A stretch of DNA of 64,000 nt from Clostridium sp. 1001271st1 H5. Lineage in GTDB: Bacteria; Bacillota; Clostridia; Lachnospirales; Lachnospiraceae. The stretch spans positions 1-64,000 of the forward strand of contig NZ_SPHO01000020.1 in NCBI RefSeq assembly GCF_005845215.1, given 5' to 3'. Below, piece after piece: positions 58,277 through 64,000 of the stretch. The notes below the pieces were generated by a model. The model did not search any database, was not told the origin of the DNA, and worked only from the letters and a program-made list of their open reading frames with translations. Both the position numbers and the translations under genes were made by a program. The stretch's first letter is position 1. Every line of letters starts with the position of its first letter.

Positions 58277-59143
58277 CTATATGCCCGGCGGGTCTTCAGG
58301 CTGGCTTAATAGTTTTTGCATCTGGGACAACAAAGAGTATTTGTTGTCAGGCAGTTGTCCTAAGAAGGTGTATTTGTCCAGGACCGTGGTATCTGCAAAG
58401 GCGCAGTGTTCCAGCTCCAGGCCACTGAGCAAATCGTGGGCTTCCTCCAGGCGTTCAAGAGGCGAGAGAGGGGTGAAAGTACCCTCCCTGCACATAGATG
58501 CCAGGCTGGTGTTAGGCCATACCCTCAAGCCTATGAACCATACCCTTGCAGGCTGTACTTTATTCAGGAAAGCAATTGTGTCATTCACATGTTGGCCGGA
58601 ACATTCTTTCCCGCCCAGTCCCGGAATGACGTTGAGGGAAAATGGGATACCGGCCTGGCGTAAGCGCAGACAGGCCTCTTCCGCCTCCTGGGCCGTGATT
58701 CCCTTATTCATGAGCCGCAGCACCTCGTTGCATCCGCTTTCCAGACCAATATACAGATGGGTCAGACCGCGGCGCATGAGGACGTTAAGCTGCTGCAGGT
58801 CCTTTCTCAATATGTCGTCAAACCTGGCATACATGCTTATGCCTTCCATCCATGGCATATGGGAATGCACGATGTCAAAGATGGACAGCAGTTTGGGAGT
58901 GTCCATCACAAAGGGATTCTCACCCAGAAGGAAGACAGAGGTTTTGCCGGTTGAATACTGCGCTAATATAGCGGCTTTTTTTTCTATGTCGCCCAGAGAA
59001 AAAACAGAAAACTTATCGTTGGAAAAGTCACAAAAGGCACACTTGTGCCAGCTGCACCCCAGGGTAGTCTCTAAGAACGCACTGTCATTTTCCCAGAAGG
59101 GGCGGTAAATTTCTTCACCAGTATACAATGATATATTGTCCAT
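58277..59143 (-). CDS. Radical SAM protein of unknown function
   Basis: The 288-residue protein has an Elp3/HemN-like radical SAM core. Its 4Fe-4S cysteines follow the Cx4Cx2C variant (Cys30, Cys35, Cys38 in GCSWHKCAFC) found in a subset of uncharacterised family members. It also has the SAM-binding segments SVFLLGENPF, LYIGLESGCNEVL and FSLNVIPGLGG. No B12 or SPASM domain is visible. AAAGGAA precedes the ATG, 10 bases after the stop of the GrdB-like gene, so the two are co-transcribed. What it modifies or reduces is unknown. Confidence 0.85.
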   Translation of the reverse strand: MDNISLYTGEEIYRPFWENDSAFLETTLGCSWHKCAFCDFSNDKFSVFSLGDIEKKAAILAQYSTGKTSVFLLGENPFVMDTPKLLSIFDIVHSHMPWMEGISMYARFDDILRKDLQQLNVLMRRGLTHLYIGLESGCNEVLRLMNKGITAQEAEEACLRLRQAGIPFSLNVIPGLGGKECSGQHVNDTIAFLNKVQPARVWFIGLRVWPNTSLASMCREGTFTPLSPLERLEEAHDLLSGLELEHCAFADTTVLDKYTFLGQLPDNKYSLLSQMQKLLSQPEDPPGI

Positions 59144-59153
59144 AATGATTCCT

Positions 59154-59969
59154 TTACTCGGATATTATGCTGTCCGTACAGTTGGGAGCTATCTCTATCT
59201 TCAGTAAATCCAGAGCTTTGCCGACCATGTGCCAGCGGTAGGTACGCTCCTCCTTCAGGCTTAGTTTGGGATCCCCGAAAACATGGCAGATATCATTACC
59301 GCGCAGGATGCGGCTCACCCCCACGCTCTCGGCAATCTTAGTCAGGTTTGTCACCTGTATTACAGGTATGCCAAGACGCTCGATTTCTTTTCCAATCAAT
59401 GCACCGCACCGGGTGCTGGTCCCGCAGGTGGAGGACAGGACAACAGCGTCCACATCGCAGTCCCTTAGTGATACGGCAATTCGTTCTCCCAGGGCAGTAC
59501 CGTTTTCAACCGATGTCATTACGCCGGCCGTGGTGTAGAAAATATCAAATAGCCGCCCTATCATACCCTCACGTTCCGCCCTTCGCAAGGCATCTATGGG
59601 TAAAAGCCGGTTGGGGTCCTGTTCTATATATTCGGTATTATAACCCTGATGACTGACCTCGTAGTCCTTGGAGAGAAGCATTTCACTGCCGCTCAGAGAA
59701 TACATGCAGAACTTCTGTGAATTTGTTGGGTTGAGATTATCCGGGTTTCCTTTGGGGACAAGCCCGCCGTCTGTAACAAGAGCAATCCTGGCTTTTGCCA
59801 GTTCCTTTTTCAAGTTAGGCATCAGTATCTCCTGAAAAGGCTTCGCGGGTACTTCTGTCTCGAAATTCTGTTTATGATATTTGGCTAGCAGCATGTCTAT
59901 GCCACGTTTGCTGGCAGGAGTTGCATAGTCAACATTTTTGATTGATGGGTTTTTGGAGTTGTTATCCAA
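59154..59969 (-). CDS. Stand-alone GrdB C-terminal homologue (glycine/sarcosine/betaine reductase type), Cys for Sec
   Basis: The 271-residue protein matches the C-terminal half of GrdB, the substrate-specific subunit of glycine/betaine/sarcosine reductases: ARIALVTDGGLVPKGNPDN, DPNRLLPIDALRRAEREGMI, IFYTTAGVMTSVENG and VLSSTCGTSTRCGALIGKEI. In GrdB the equivalent motif, as I recall, is STUGTCTRCGA with selenocysteine. Here Cys182 replaces Sec and Ser185 replaces the following Cys. The N-terminal domain, as encoded at 63605, is lacking. Start is TTG 59969 after GGTGA, with a good promoter on this strand, so it looks intact and expressed rather than broken. Function is unknown, but a reductase or thiol role is likely. 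Confidence 0.8.
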   Translation of the reverse strand: MDNNSKNPSIKNVDYATPASKRGIDMLLAKYHKQNFETEVPAKPFQEILMPNLKKELAKARIALVTDGGLVPKGNPDNLNPTNSQKFCMYSLSGSEMLLSKDYEVSHQGYNTEYIEQDPNRLLPIDALRRAEREGMIGRLFDIFYTTAGVMTSVENGTALGERIAVSLRDCDVDAVVLSSTCGTSTRCGALIGKEIERLGIPVIQVTNLTKIAESVGVSRILRGNDICHVFGDPKLSLKEERTYRWHMVGKALDLLKIEIAPNCTDSIISE

Positions 59970-60030: not shown

Positions 60031-60059
60031 ATCATATAGATTTCGATAATATATGTCAA
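60031..60059 (-). promoter_or_regulatory. Promoter of the GrdB-like/radical SAM operon
   Basis: On the minus strand TTGACA (60059-60054) and TATGAT (60036-60031) are 17 bases apart. Confidence 0.8.
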
Positions 60060-60069
60060 GATGCATTTT

Positions 60070-60084
60070 GTGCACGTTGTACAC
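60070..60084. promoter_or_regulatory. Operator-like inverted repeat between divergent promoters
   Basis: GTGCAC-GTT-GTACAC is an inverted repeat (GTGYAC arms, one mismatch) lying 10 bases from the minus-strand -35 and 25 bases from the plus-strand -35. It could control both units. Confidence 0.55.
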
Positions 60085-60109: not shown

Positions 60110-60138
60110 TTGACAATAGCTGCTAATGGACATATAAT
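60110..60138 (+). promoter_or_regulatory. Promoter of the TetR-type regulator gene
   Basis: Perfect TTGACA (60110-60115) and perfect TATAAT (60133-60138) lie 17 bases apart. Confidence 0.9.
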
Positions 60139-60211: not shown

Positions 60212-60814
60212 ATGCAAAGGAGGAGATGTTCAACGTCCAGCAGCGATATAACTAAAAAGGCATTTGCGGATGCAATCAAACATCTGCTTAAAAAAAAGTC
60301 ATTAGCCAAGATTTCCGTAAAGGATATAGTTCAGTATTGTAATATCAGCCGAAATACTTTTTATTATCATTTTAAAGATAAATATGAATTGATAAACTGG
60401 ATTTTTTATACAGAAACATTGGCAGAAGTCAACTCCTTCAATGACCCCAGCAAGTGTCAGGACAGTTTTATAAATCTGTGCAGGTATCTGCATAAAAACC
60501 GGAGTTTTTACCTGAGCTGTTTCCAATATGTGGGCCAGAATTCCCTGAGGGATTATTTGCAGAATTTTTATTATGAGTTGATTCGCATGAACCTCAGTGT
60601 TCAATATTCAGAGGCAGGAATCAGGCTGTCAAGTGATGAACTGAACCTGATGGCGCGTATGGAGGCTTATTCATATGTAGGCATTGTTTTTGACTGGGTC
60701 AGGGATGGCATGAATAACGATTATGGGCGGTATTTCGACCATCTTGCCAGTATACGAAAGATTGAGATGTCCTATAATAAAATGACTGAGAAAAGTATGA
60801 TGCAGAATCATTGA
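60212..60814 (+). CDS. TetR-family transcriptional regulator
   Basis: The protein (about 200 residues or slightly fewer) has an N-terminal TetR helix-turn-helix (TKKAFADAIKHLLKKKSLAKISVKDI, then CNISRNTFYYHFKDKYELINW) and a helical C-terminal domain of the type seen in DhaS-like regulators. It is divergent from the GrdB-like/radical SAM operon and upstream of the MFS/GrdE/GrdB genes, so it probably governs both. The start is unclear. ATG 60212 has no good ribosome-binding site, while a strong AAAGGAGGAG (60216-60225) lies inside the frame and is followed by no in-frame ATG, GTG or TTG. Confidence 0.88.
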   Translation: MQRRRCSTSSSDITKKAFADAIKHLLKKKSLAKISVKDIVQYCNISRNTFYYHFKDKYELINWIFYTETLAEVNSFNDPSKCQDSFINLCRYLHKNRSFYLSCFQYVGQNSLRDYLQNFYYELIRMNLSVQYSEAGIRLSSDELNLMARMEAYSYVGIVFDWVRDGMNNDYGRYFDHLASIRKIEMSYNKMTEKSMMQNH

Positions 60815-61073: not shown

Positions 61074-62270
61074 ATGAATGGTAAACAGGAAACAAACAGG
61101 TGGGCGATACTGGTGTACGGTATGATTTGCATGTTGATTATGGGCATATGTTATACATATAGCTTATTTCAGCCCTATATCATGGACCACTTTTCCGTGG
61201 CAAGTGCGAGTGCAAGCCTTCCATACACGATTTTTATTGCCGTGTTCTGTGTGGGAAACTTTTTCGGAGGCGTCATGCAGAGAAAGATGTCCTTGAAGAC
61301 AGTGCTGATTATTGGGTATGGGCTTATGTTTTTAGGGTGGTTCGCCTCAGCAGTTTTGCCGCCGGACATGTTCTGGTGCATGTTTTTGACATTTGGAGGC
61401 CTTTTTGGAATCGGAGACGGCATTGTATATAATGTTATCGTTGCACTGATGCCAAAGTGGTTTCCGGACAAAAAGGGACTGGCATCCGGGCTCACGCTTG
61501 CCACTTTGGGAATCAGTGCAACGGTATTTTCACCCATAGTAAGCTCCTGGCTTACAAATTATGGTTATATGAAATCGTTCATGATAGTCTCAGGAGTATA
61601 CATTGCAGTTGGAATATTCGGGACCATTACAATGAAGGCACCTCCGGCCGGATTTATGGAGGATTATGTATCTGCCGGAGCCAATGTCAGCTCTAAAAAG
61701 CAGTATACATTAAAAGAGGCGCTGCATGTAAAGGAATTGTATACAATAACCGGATTATATTTCTGTGCGGTACCAGCTTATCTGCTGCTTAGTGCGATTT
61801 TTGTTACATATGGAGCGGATAAGGGACTTACATCAGCCATGGCAACCCTGGGCGTCAGCATTGCCTCATTGTGCCAGGTTGGCGGACGCTTCGTCATTCC
61901 TACCTTAAGTGATAAGATAGGACGTAAGGCAGCATTTGCCATTTCCTTTTTCATTACAGCTGGAGGGGTTGCATTATTGACAGTTGCAACGGGAAATCTT
62001 TATATGTTCTGCTTCTGGCTCCTCAGCTTGTCTTATGGCGGCTGCCAGGCCTGTTTCTCACCGATTGCAGCAGACCGGTTTGGAACAAAGAATGTGGGTG
62101 TTATCCTCTCTTTCACCATGATTGGCTTTGGCGTGGGCTCCGTAGGTGCATCCCTGCTTGCAAAGGTGGTAGGTATCTCTACTGCATTCATCGGTGCCGG
62201 AGTAGTTGCGCTGCTTGGAATTGTCCTGGTATTTACGCTGCCTGGCAAGAAAAGTGCTGAGAATGCATGA
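61074..62270 (+). CDS. MFS transporter, OFA (oxalate/formate antiporter-like) family
   Basis: The 398-residue membrane protein has twelve predicted transmembrane segments and OFA-type blocks: MICMLIMGICYTYSLFQPYI in helix 1, GIGDGIVYNVIVALMPKWFPDKKGLASGL between helices 4 and 5 (split here by position), and GGRFVIPTLSDKIGRKAAF. OFA members exchange or import small carboxylates. It is the first gene of an operon with GrdE-like and GrdB-like proteins, so it probably supplies their substrate. GAGG lies before the ATG. Confidence 0.88.
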   Translation: MNGKQETNRWAILVYGMICMLIMGICYTYSLFQPYIMDHFSVASASASLPYTIFIAVFCVGNFFGGVMQRKMSLKTVLIIGYGLMFLGWFASAVLPPDMFWCMFLTFGGLFGIGDGIVYNVIVALMPKWFPDKKGLASGLTLATLGISATVFSPIVSSWLTNYGYMKSFMIVSGVYIAVGIFGTITMKAPPAGFMEDYVSAGANVSSKKQYTLKEALHVKELYTITGLYFCAVPAYLLLSAIFVTYGADKGLTSAMATLGVSIASLCQVGGRFVIPTLSDKIGRKAAFAISFFITAGGVALLTVATGNLYMFCFWLLSLSYGGCQACFSPIAADRFGTKNVGVILSFTMIGFGVGSVGASLLAKVVGISTAFIGAGVVALLGIVLVFTLPGKKSAENA

Positions 62271-62310
62271 TAATATATTACATGTTTGACATAGGAAAGG
62301 AGTGCTTAAA

Positions 62311-63588
62311 TTGAGCAAAAAATTGCAGATTGACTATGTAAGGGTAAAGAAAGTTCAGTTCGGGGACAAAACAGTTTTAGAGAATGGGATACTGACAATT
62401 AACAAAGAGGAATTGATTGACACGGTAAAGAGTGAGATGTTCGGGAACCTGGATATCAAGATAGCAGTGCCTGGGGAGAGCTGCCGCATTCTGGCCATAC
62501 ATGATATCATGCAGCCCCGCTGCAAGGCGGATGCGCCGGAGACCTCCTATCCGGGTATCTGGGGAAAGCTTGCTCCTATGGGGGAGGGACGGACGGTTGC
62601 TCTTAAGGGCGTGGTGGTATCAGACATCTACTATGCAAAGTGTAATATTAAATATTATATGGATATGGGCGGTCCATGCGCCAAATATACCCACTTTTCA
62701 AAGCATTATCATGTGATTCTGGATGCAACGCCGGCAGAGGGCGTAAGCGATGCAAGCTATGCAGAGGCATTAAAATATGCGTCCCTGACAATCAATGTAT
62801 ATCTGGCAAAGCTGGGAATCGGCCTTACACCGGATGAGACAGAAACCTTTGAATTGGGACCCGTAGGACCGGGGCCTGATGGAAAGCCTCTCCCCAAGGT
62901 GGCGTATCTTGTTACCCATATGGCTTCCCATGATACATGGAACTTCCTGGTATATGGGCAGAGCGCACTGAACTTTTTGCCAATCATTCTCCAGCCCACT
63001 GAGATACTGGACGGAGCCATGGTATGGAGATACTGGGAGCCTAATTACTATCTGCAGAATGAGACATACATCAAGGAGCTGCTGAGAAGGCATGGAAAGG
63101 ACCTGGAATTCGTAGGCCTTGTATTTGCCAATAATGTGATGAAGATTGACGGCAAGGATGCCATGGGAATGATGGCGGCCACCTTGTGCAAAGAGACATT
63201 GAAAGCAGACTGCGTTCTTGTCAATAAGTCCGGCATGGGACATTGCCAGCTGGATTCGGCCCTGGCCTTTAACTGGTGCCAGAAAATGGGGATGCCTTGC
63301 GTCATGAATCTGTCTGCTGTTTCCAATGATGTTCCCGGCGATATGCTGGTTATCTCTGACCCTAAGATTGACGCAGTTATAAACAGCGGAAGGAATTACG
63401 ACCTGCAGCATCCCAAGGTGGACCGTGTGATTGGTAAAGATGCAGGTGTTCCGAGTCTGATGGGATATAATGTTGAGGGACCATTTACACACACAACAAA
63501 CTTCGCTTATCAGGGAATCTGGTCTCAGCTGGGTGATTGTTATGTGACAACAGACAGCGATTTGCCGGATGTCCCGGACACTATGTAA
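62311..63588 (+). CDS. GrdE-like glycine/sarcosine/betaine reductase component B, alpha/beta proprotein
   Basis: The 425-residue protein has GrdE-type features: VRVKKVQFGDKTVLENGILTINKEELI at the N-terminus (two blocks), AVPGESCRILAIHDIMQPR, AKYTHFSKHYHVILDATPAEGVS, and a C-terminal half with VFANNVMKIDGKDAMGMM and MGHCQLDSALAFNWCQKMG. GrdE proteins are cut autocatalytically to give a pyruvoyl-bearing subunit that binds the amino group of the substrate; a matching internal Cys cannot be fixed with certainty here. The start is TTG 62311, eight bases after AAAGGAG. The paired GrdB-like gene follows by 16 bases. Confidence 0.82.
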   Translation: MSKKLQIDYVRVKKVQFGDKTVLENGILTINKEELIDTVKSEMFGNLDIKIAVPGESCRILAIHDIMQPRCKADAPETSYPGIWGKLAPMGEGRTVALKGVVVSDIYYAKCNIKYYMDMGGPCAKYTHFSKHYHVILDATPAEGVSDASYAEALKYASLTINVYLAKLGIGLTPDETETFELGPVGPGPDGKPLPKVAYLVTHMASHDTWNFLVYGQSALNFLPIILQPTEILDGAMVWRYWEPNYYLQNETYIKELLRRHGKDLEFVGLVFANNVMKIDGKDAMGMMAATLCKETLKADCVLVNKSGMGHCQLDSALAFNWCQKMGMPCVMNLSAVSNDVPGDMLVISDPKIDAVINSGRNYDLQHPKVDRVIGKDAGVPSLMGYNVEGPFTHTTNFAYQGIWSQLGDCYVTTDSDLPDVPDTM

Positions 63589-63604: not shown

Positions 63605-64000
63605 ATGTCTGATAAGATTCGTGTGGTTCACTATATCAACCAGTTTTATGGCGGATATGGCGGGGAAGACACCGCCAGCATGGGAATCGTGGTAAAAGAA
63701 GAACCCGTTGGCCCCGGGCTGTATCTGCAGTCAGCATTGGGAGACAGCTATAAAATAGTTGCAACTATTATTTGCGGTGACAATTTTATTGCTGAGAATA
63801 TTGAGAACGTGTCAAATGAGGTTGCTGACATTGTGGAAAAATACAATGCCCAGATGTACATAGCCGGCCCCGGATTCAACGCAGGGCGGTACGGTCTGGC
63901 CTGCGGAGCCACTACGGCAGTTGTTACTGAACGGCTTAAAATACCTGCAGTCACCGGCCTATATACGGAAAATCCGGGCACAGACCTCTACAAGGACAGG
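63605..64000 (+). CDS. GrdB-like reductase component B gamma subunit (N-terminal part, runs off the window)
   Basis: The first 132 residues match the GrdB N-terminus: VVHYINQFYGGYGGEDTASM, VGPGLYLQSALGDSY, ATIICGDNFIAENIENV, MYIAGPGFNAGRYGLACG and LKIPAVTGLYTENPGTD. In the family the Sec-containing C-terminal half follows, which would lie beyond position 64000. AGGAGGGAGAAGAA precedes the ATG. With the GrdE-like protein it would form the substrate-specific part of a reductase that hands a carboxymethyl group to GrdA, but no grdA, grdC or grdD is seen in this window. Confidence 0.82.
   Translation, partial: MSDKIRVVHYINQFYGGYGGEDTASMGIVVKEEPVGPGLYLQSALGDSYKIVATIICGDNFIAENIENVSNEVADIVEKYNAQMYIAGPGFNAGRYGLACGATTAVVTERLKIPAVTGLYTENPGTDLYKDR

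Follow-up and report, generated by a model that had tools for sequence, protein, structure and literature searches.

The window, by which we mean the first 64,000 nucleotides of contig NZ_SPHO01000020.1 from Clostridium sp. 1001271st1 H5, ends in a group of genes in which a short protein related to the GrdB subunit of selenoprotein reductases faces a fluoroacetate-reductase (far) locus, fluoroacetate being the putative substrate in this organism as judged from sequence. We name this short protein GrdBc, since it consists of a stand-alone GrdB C-terminal domain; it carries a cysteine (Cys) where selenocysteine (Sec) would be expected. Its gene shares the minus strand with a downstream gene for a radical S-adenosylmethionine (SAM) protein, from which it is separated by 10 bases. 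On the plus strand lie a gene for a TetR-family regulator, a transporter gene of the major facilitator superfamily (MFS) and the genes for FarE and FarB. The TetR gene, which sits between GrdBc and the far operon, was absent from an earlier note made on this DNA. The features are listed in Table 1.

Table 1. Genes and candidate control sites at the GrdBc locus, with positions in the window
Feature	Position	Strand	Remarks
Radical SAM protein, Cx4Cx2C (C-SWHK-C-AF-C), possible FarC counterpart	58277..59143	-	288 aa; PF04055 57 bits
GrdBc, stand-alone FarB-type GrdB C-terminal domain, Cys for Sec	59154..59969	-	271 aa, TTG start; Pfam and NCBIfam matches
Promoter-like site, GrdBc-radical SAM pair	60031..60059	-	TTGACA-17-TATGAT, 11/12, consensus match only
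TTTGTGCA, candidate operator half-site	60067..60074	.	between the divergent promoter-like sites; weak
Promoter-like site, TetR gene	60110..60138	+	TTGACA-17-TATAAT, 12/12, consensus match only
DhaS-like TetR-family regulator (TetR_N + TetR_C_8)	60212..60814	+	PF14278 60.6 bits; PF00440 35.3 bits; TIGR02366 121.1 bits
FarA-like MFS transporter, oxalate/formate-lactate type	61074..62270	+	PF07690 133 bits; NF049980 237.8 and TIGR00890 184.2 bits, both under cut-off
FarE, fluoroacetate reductase subunit	62302..63588 (likely start 62311)	+	NF053623 910.4 bits, cut-off 675
FarB, Sec-containing selenoprotein B, first part	63606..64000, runs beyond the window to about C12:64927	+	in-frame TGA, STUGTSSRCGA

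The Pfam profile PF07355 (GRDB) aligns to GrdBc solely over positions 177-347 of 347 (E 4.6e-54), and the NCBIfam model TIGR01918, with 245.8 bits against a cut-off of 65.45, solely over positions 183-425 of 431. Coverage confined to the C-terminal part of the profiles identifies GrdBc, far beyond chance, as the C-terminal half of GrdB without the N-terminal half, as the earlier note had proposed for this 271-residue protein. The note had also read a Cys in place of Sec in the motif STCGTSTRCGA, correctly, the codon at that position being TGC. With this codon, and with a Pfam match that begins at position 177 of 347, GrdBc does not qualify as a GrdB selenoprotein B. It shares the C-terminal domain with the GrdB, GrdF and GrdH forms of that protein (TIGR01917, NF040794, NF040795), but differs from them in lacking Sec, the N-terminal domain and the CxxC motif and in grouping with FarB. 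PrdB is likewise a stand-alone C-domain of similar size; however, the PrdB model TIGR04483 gives GrdBc only 77.6 bits, under its cut-off of 300, and GrdBc has Cys, not Sec, so that an identification as PrdB was rejected. GRDB is the sole Pfam family matched by GrdBc, which thus shows no homology to DhaK or DhaQ, and a sequence search for solved structures related to GrdBc or FarB found none.

The assignment of the neighbouring operon to far follows from the score of FarE with the model NF053623 and from the TGA-encoded Sec of FarB. In the assembly beyond the window FarB is full-length with its in-frame TGA, and no CxxC follows the Sec. A generic glycine, sarcosine or betaine reductase was rejected on the FarE model score and on the tree of C-terminal domains described below. 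The earlier note had placed GrdBc divergent from a GrdE/GrdB-like operon; the orientation stands (GrdBc on the minus strand, the operon on the plus strand), and the genes in question are FarE and FarB. Two GrdA genes, each with TGA in frame, are also present in the genome. The locus resembles the published farACEB operon of Cloacibacillus porcorum MFA1 in its FarE above the cut-off, its Sec-containing FarB without CxxC, its oxalate/formate-type MFS transporter and a radical SAM gene nearby. It differs in the addition of the stand-alone, Cys-containing GrdBc, a protein that does not appear in the main text on that operon, and of the DhaS-like TetR (PMC10838667). In C. porcorum, fluoroacetate raises farACEB expression thousands-fold, whereas glycine has no strong effect; the radical SAM gene farC lies inside the operon, the reported far features include a FarE that lacks the pair of Cys used in pyruvoyl processing, and regulators labelled fadR and acrR are named in a figure legend on far-like clusters (PMC10838667).

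To find comparable loci, exact peptide patterns derived from a FarE alignment were scanned against 84,980 species genomes, which returned 17 loci (L063-L079; G418, which duplicates L063, is not counted separately). Together with the window (L009, genome G000) and a same-genus genome, G005 (L061), these make 19 far loci, among them loci of Lachnospiraceae such as Faecalimonas umbilicata (L063) and Hespellia stercorisuis (L064). The scan was incomplete, since it returned no locus from Synergistota although far is published there; all GrdBc counts are conditional on a locus having been located via FarE, and some of the contigs are short. GrdBc is present in 15 of the 19 loci, and when all 19 genomes were searched with a profile, one full, stop-free copy was found in each of those 15 (a stop-free GrdB fragment of 195 aa in G496, 68 bits, was set aside). 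In L068 and L071 it was best matched by the FarB query, yet its frames are stand-alone. Independent cases number fewer than 15, since G000 and G005, as well as L065-L067, are near-copies. The possibility of a one-off truncation, which the earlier note had named as fatal to its own proposal, was looked for and rejected on these counts.

Outside the far loci, stop-free GrdBc was sought in samples of 195, 398 and 198 genomes, which perhaps overlap in part. Among 195 relatives it occurs in G000 and G005 only, both far genomes; among 198 genomes of the phylum of L073, only in the far genome L073 itself. Of 398 genomes of the window's phylum, 110 have GrdB-like matches, and among the matches listed only the window's is stop-free and stand-alone (up to six candidates were scored per genome; a true GrdBc scores above 400 bits and would rank top). 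FarE exceeds its cut-off in one of these 398 genomes, that of the window, and in two of another 392, that of the window and G418. GrdBc is thus accompanied by FarE and FarB in 15/15 loci, and the independent searches gave no case outside far genomes, in agreement with the association that the earlier note had suggested looking for. No relative of GrdBc was found in viral contigs.

In all 15 GrdBc proteins the Sec position is occupied by Cys, with Ser at +3 and Cys at +6, whereas the Sec-position codon is TGA in all 18 complete FarB genes (in L065 the contig ends inside FarB). Both Cys of the resulting CX5C motif are invariant in GrdBc (15/15); FarB has the second one in 14/18. The FarB proteins without it (L074, L076, L078 and L079) read STUGTSSRGGS, and the GrdBc proteins of L074 and L078 retain it.

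A steadier companion of GrdBc than the radical SAM gene is the TetR gene, found by similarity in 18 of the 19 far loci (not in L076; the copy of L079 lies about 7 kb past FarB and has 31% identity) and in every one of the 15 GrdBc loci. In one of the latter, from Hespellia stercorisuis (L064:1-660), only the C-terminal half of TetR was found, upstream of an intact GrdBc, at a contig start without the rest. TetR and GrdBc stand in tandem, in this order, in 12/15 loci, and in 10/15 the stop of TetR overlaps the start of GrdBc, the overlap being 4 or 7 bases long and of the kind that commonly points to translational coupling. The starts of GrdBc in L071 and L078 are unsettled, with an apparent 67-base overlap and a 58-base gap, respectively. 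In the window and in G005 the two genes are merely divergent neighbours and not in tandem; where FarE is on the opposite strand (G000, G005, L074 and L078), GrdBc still adjoins TetR. As to its family, the window TetR retrieves PDB entries 4mk6 (a probable dihydroxyacetone kinase regulator) and 2iu5 (DhaS) at the top of a structure-profile search, and the DhaS model TIGR02366, whose next-best protein in the same genome reaches 75 bits, matches all ten far TetRs scanned of the 18 loci that have one (E up to 0.001). The only close copy of this TetR among 145 relatives is that of G005 (440 bits, the next scoring 106 bits).

We compared pairwise distances among 11 of the 15 GrdBc loci, omitting the near-copies L061, L065 and L067 and the incomplete TetR of L064. 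TetR and GrdBc distances correlate with r 0.91, and the partial r given FarE is 0.85, with 0/5000 permutations as high; in two subsets of eight loci it is 0.84 (17/5000) and 0.81 (0/5000). The corresponding values given FarE are 0.13 for TetR and FarB and 0.20 for GrdBc and FarB. The correlation beyond what FarE accounts for indicates that the divergence of GrdBc tracks the regulator more than the enzyme. GrdBc is also the least conserved of the four proteins, with a mean identity across loci of 0.55, against 0.60 for TetR, 0.73 for the FarB C-domain and 0.82 for FarE.

A tree of 65 C-terminal domains, from which L030 (= L063), copies of the window and GrdBs with a misfitting motif (e.g. L003, L007) were omitted, splits GrdBc and FarB from 32 other GrdB rows with support of 100/99, these rows including two same-gene pairs (L013/L032, L018/L044). 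FarB forms one clade (100/99), and on this sequence evidence GrdBc belongs to the Far lineage. Long branches are those of L071, L078 and L074. GrdBc retains, in at least 13/15 copies, 40 of the 50 residues that FarB shares with other GrdB proteins and, in at least 12/15, 22 of the 44 positions that are invariant in FarB and atypical of other GrdB. The latter include some in TDGGLVP, HQGY, GVMT and TNL, while others, such as those of GNSVLHV and of the NHEEIP loop, are for the most part not retained; shared ancestry could explain the retained residues without a shared ligand.

The intergenic region between GrdBc and TetR offers candidate control sites. The earlier note had assigned GrdBc its own promoter and start; a TTG start and a promoter-like site are indeed present, but seven such sites were found in the region against 5.5 +/- 2.7 in shuffled sequences, no clear excess. 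Among 8-mers, TTTGTGCA, counted together with its complement, shows the largest excess: it is found in 7 of 13 far intergenic sets, where 0.51 would be expected. It makes 16-base palindromes in L073, a hint that it may be an operator half-site.

In Lactococcus lactis, the TetR-type activator DhaS depends on DhaQ, an inactive paralogue of DhaK, the kinase subunit, and it is DhaQ that senses and binds the substrate. By analogy, we propose that GrdBc is a non-catalytic paralogue of FarB that binds fluoroacetate and co-regulates far together with the DhaS-like TetR, a reading to which we give a probability of about 0.52. The likeness lies in a DhaS-like TetR next to a paralogue, probably without catalysis, of one of the subunits of the adjacent enzyme; the difference is that GrdBc derives from GrdB/FarB and not from dihydroxyacetone kinase, and that the GrdBc-TetR pair is a predicted one. 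Starting from what is directly observed, namely the parts of the locus, their conservation, the Far ancestry of GrdBc, and the ties between GrdBc and TetR in gene arrangement and in divergence, we infer complex formation, a ligand, DNA binding, loss of catalysis and a direction of control. GrdBc would be a regulatory paralogue of FarB reduced to the C-terminal, active-site domain with Cys for Sec. Fluoroacetate, or a close haloacid, would be bound in the pocket inherited from FarB and would not be turned over, owing to the replacement of Sec by Cys. GrdBc would form a complex with the TetR encoded next to it, and the liganded complex would act on the far promoters, switching on far transcription or, alternatively, relieving its repression. 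From the pattern of far induction in C. porcorum, strong with fluoroacetate and not strong with glycine, a specific sensor is to be expected.

Several observations weigh against this proposal. The window TetR stays under the TIGR02366 cut-off of 129, the same model also matches in 11/14 control genomes, and TetR matches at E 1e-15 occur in 54 of the 145 relatives. GrdBc is absent, by profile search, from the genomes of L072, L075, L076 and L079, of which L072 and L075 have TetR, and in L073 it stands after FarB, apart from TetR. In 10/15 loci (L063-L071, L077) FarE follows 3' of GrdBc on the same strand, at 114-377 bases, so that GrdBc neighbours FarE and not TetR alone. Co-divergence may come from joint transfer or inheritance of neighbours without any contact between the proteins. 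The best tree does not unite all GrdBc: 11 copies group together (100/100), and the four others (G000, G005, L073, L078) lie nearer FarB (85/85). A single GrdBc clade appears in 8% of 200 bootstrap trees and is not rejected (p-AU 0.40); with this split placement, a repeated origin of the truncation is possible. As for TTTGTGCA, the best 8-mer of any kind in first-order shuffles reaches a mean of 6.2 loci and up to 10. Finally, the invariant Cys pair of the CX5C motif could reflect retained chemistry.

Given this last point, GrdBc might carry out a covalent or redox step. It is conceivable, if on balance doubtful, that GrdBc senses fluoroacetate by carrying out just the first half-reaction, that is by binding and perhaps by S-carboxymethylation of its Cys, and that the signal is then passed to the DhaS-type TetR. 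A signal other than the substrate is a rather unlikely alternative, in which GrdBc would partner TetR but sense the state of the enzyme (unoccupied FarE or GrdA), redox conditions or selenium supply via the CX5C pair: the data on TetR-GrdBc coupling apply to it equally, and the second Cys, never lost in GrdBc, is absent in 4/18 FarB, although the retention of half of the FarB-specific residues fits shared ligand binding, with the reservation on shared ancestry made above. We regard it as unlikely that GrdBc is a selenium-independent backup catalytic subunit, which with FarE would make a Cys-type reductase under selenium shortage or with another halo-acid preference. The precedent would be PrdB of D-proline reductase, a stand-alone GrdB-type C-domain that acts as a catalytic subunit and whose model matches GrdBc weakly; the invariance of both Cys and the position of FarE after GrdBc on the same strand in 10/15 loci would also fit, as would L073, where GrdBc comes directly after FarB. 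Against it, GrdBc stays beside TetR in the four loci with FarE on the opposite strand, its start overlaps the TetR stop in most loci while its distance to FarE is never below 114 bases, its divergence follows TetR and not FarB, it lacks the whole N-domain that FarB keeps, and its mean identity is the lowest of the four proteins. The selenium-independent accessory reductase of the earlier note keeps some probability; both the arrangement of the genes and the way in which GrdBc co-diverges with TetR speak rather for regulation. A decaying, functionless duplicate of FarB, which the fast divergence of GrdBc might suggest, is scarcely credible given that the open frame, the motif and both Cys are kept in 15/15 loci.

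The earlier note had further proposed a maturation pair for the main enzyme; in a wider form of this idea, GrdBc and the radical SAM protein would together mature or reactivate FarB or FarE. Its description of a radical SAM gene with a Cx4Cx2C motif within 10 bases of GrdBc is accurate; this spacing, the adjacency of the two genes in G005 and the suggestion that farC may reactivate oxidised Sec or make a formylglycine (PMC10838667) speak for such a pair. With the window protein as query, however, a radical SAM gene was found in only 4/19 far loci and in 3/15 with GrdBc. It stands next to GrdBc in 2/15, the window and the near-identical G005, and occurs once without it (L075). Homologues belong to a broad family, with members in 37 further genomes of the 195 relatives, and none of eight radical SAM loci looked at (L082-L089) has far genes within flanks of 1.5 kb. 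The window protein is 38% identical to the copy of L075 and 40% to that of the unlinked L082. On this rarity, these wide homologues and these identities we regard a functional partnership with GrdBc as unsupported, and a role of the two in maturation is very improbable. The copies of L078 and L075 are closer to each other (276 bits), which suggests that a FarC lineage may exist, the window's copy not being clearly in it. As judged from gene content, the radical SAM protein is optional to the system and is not conserved with GrdBc, and TetR is the steadier partner. The Cx4Cx2C family adjoins, by eye, an HxlR-type regulator in L083, L084, L085 and L087, the radical SAM genes forming a tandem pair in L085 and L087.

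The far operon and FarE are already known, and the GrdBc-TetR pair would add a further form of enzyme-paralogue co-regulator. Literature searches, whose coverage leaves out most subscription papers, gave no account of GrdBc or of the pair among the matches listed, nor, among these, anything on fluoroacetate sensing or a far regulator beyond the fadR and acrR labels (PMC10838667). The far loci of Lachnospiraceae extend the range of the system beyond the Synergistota of that study (PMC10838667). If our proposal of a co-regulator holds, a second enzyme family would be known whose inactive copy serves a DhaS-like regulator. On the more doubtful reading with a half-reaction, a subunit of a selenoenzyme would have become a co-regulator of transcription through reduction to its active-site domain and fixation of Cys in place of Sec. 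This would, to our knowledge, be the first case in which an organofluorine poison is sensed by a protein derived from the enzyme destroying it; anaerobic cleavage of the C-F bond is, as far as we know, described in few bacteria. The pair is a concrete, testable candidate for a fluoroacetate sensor and a possible biosensor part. In several gut bacteria, a shortened copy with sulfur in place of selenium lies beside the genes for a putative fluoroacetate-splitting enzyme, where it probably contributes to sensing the poison and not to degrading it.

Some observations concern the other far genes and more distant relatives. The FarA-like transporter is present in 4/19 far loci. In 11/19 (L063, L065-L068, L070-L072, L076, L077 and L079) no MFS FarA but an L-lactate permease family protein was found, confirmed with PF02652 for the two copies checked (L063 and L079); in 9/11 its gene is divergent from TetR, and the protein may be an alternative importer of fluoroacetate. 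A search for FarE on plasmids returned six records, all below 60% identity (best 32.2%), the annotated ones being named as other GrdE types. In the search of the 195 relatives, two stop-free frames of 245-246 aa (G054:C11:82901-83455 and G099:C35:3614-4162), PrdB-sized and with 58-60 bits to GrdBc, were set aside as PrdB-like; they are perhaps Cys versions of PrdB. Two FarB-like proteins, L139 (G862) and L131 (G530), reach about 300 bits with the GrdBc profile. The FarE-like neighbour in G862 scores 251 bits, under the FarE cut-off, and the adjoining open reading frame looks, by eye, like a dihydropyrimidinase; the two FarB-like proteins possibly represent a sister family with another substrate.

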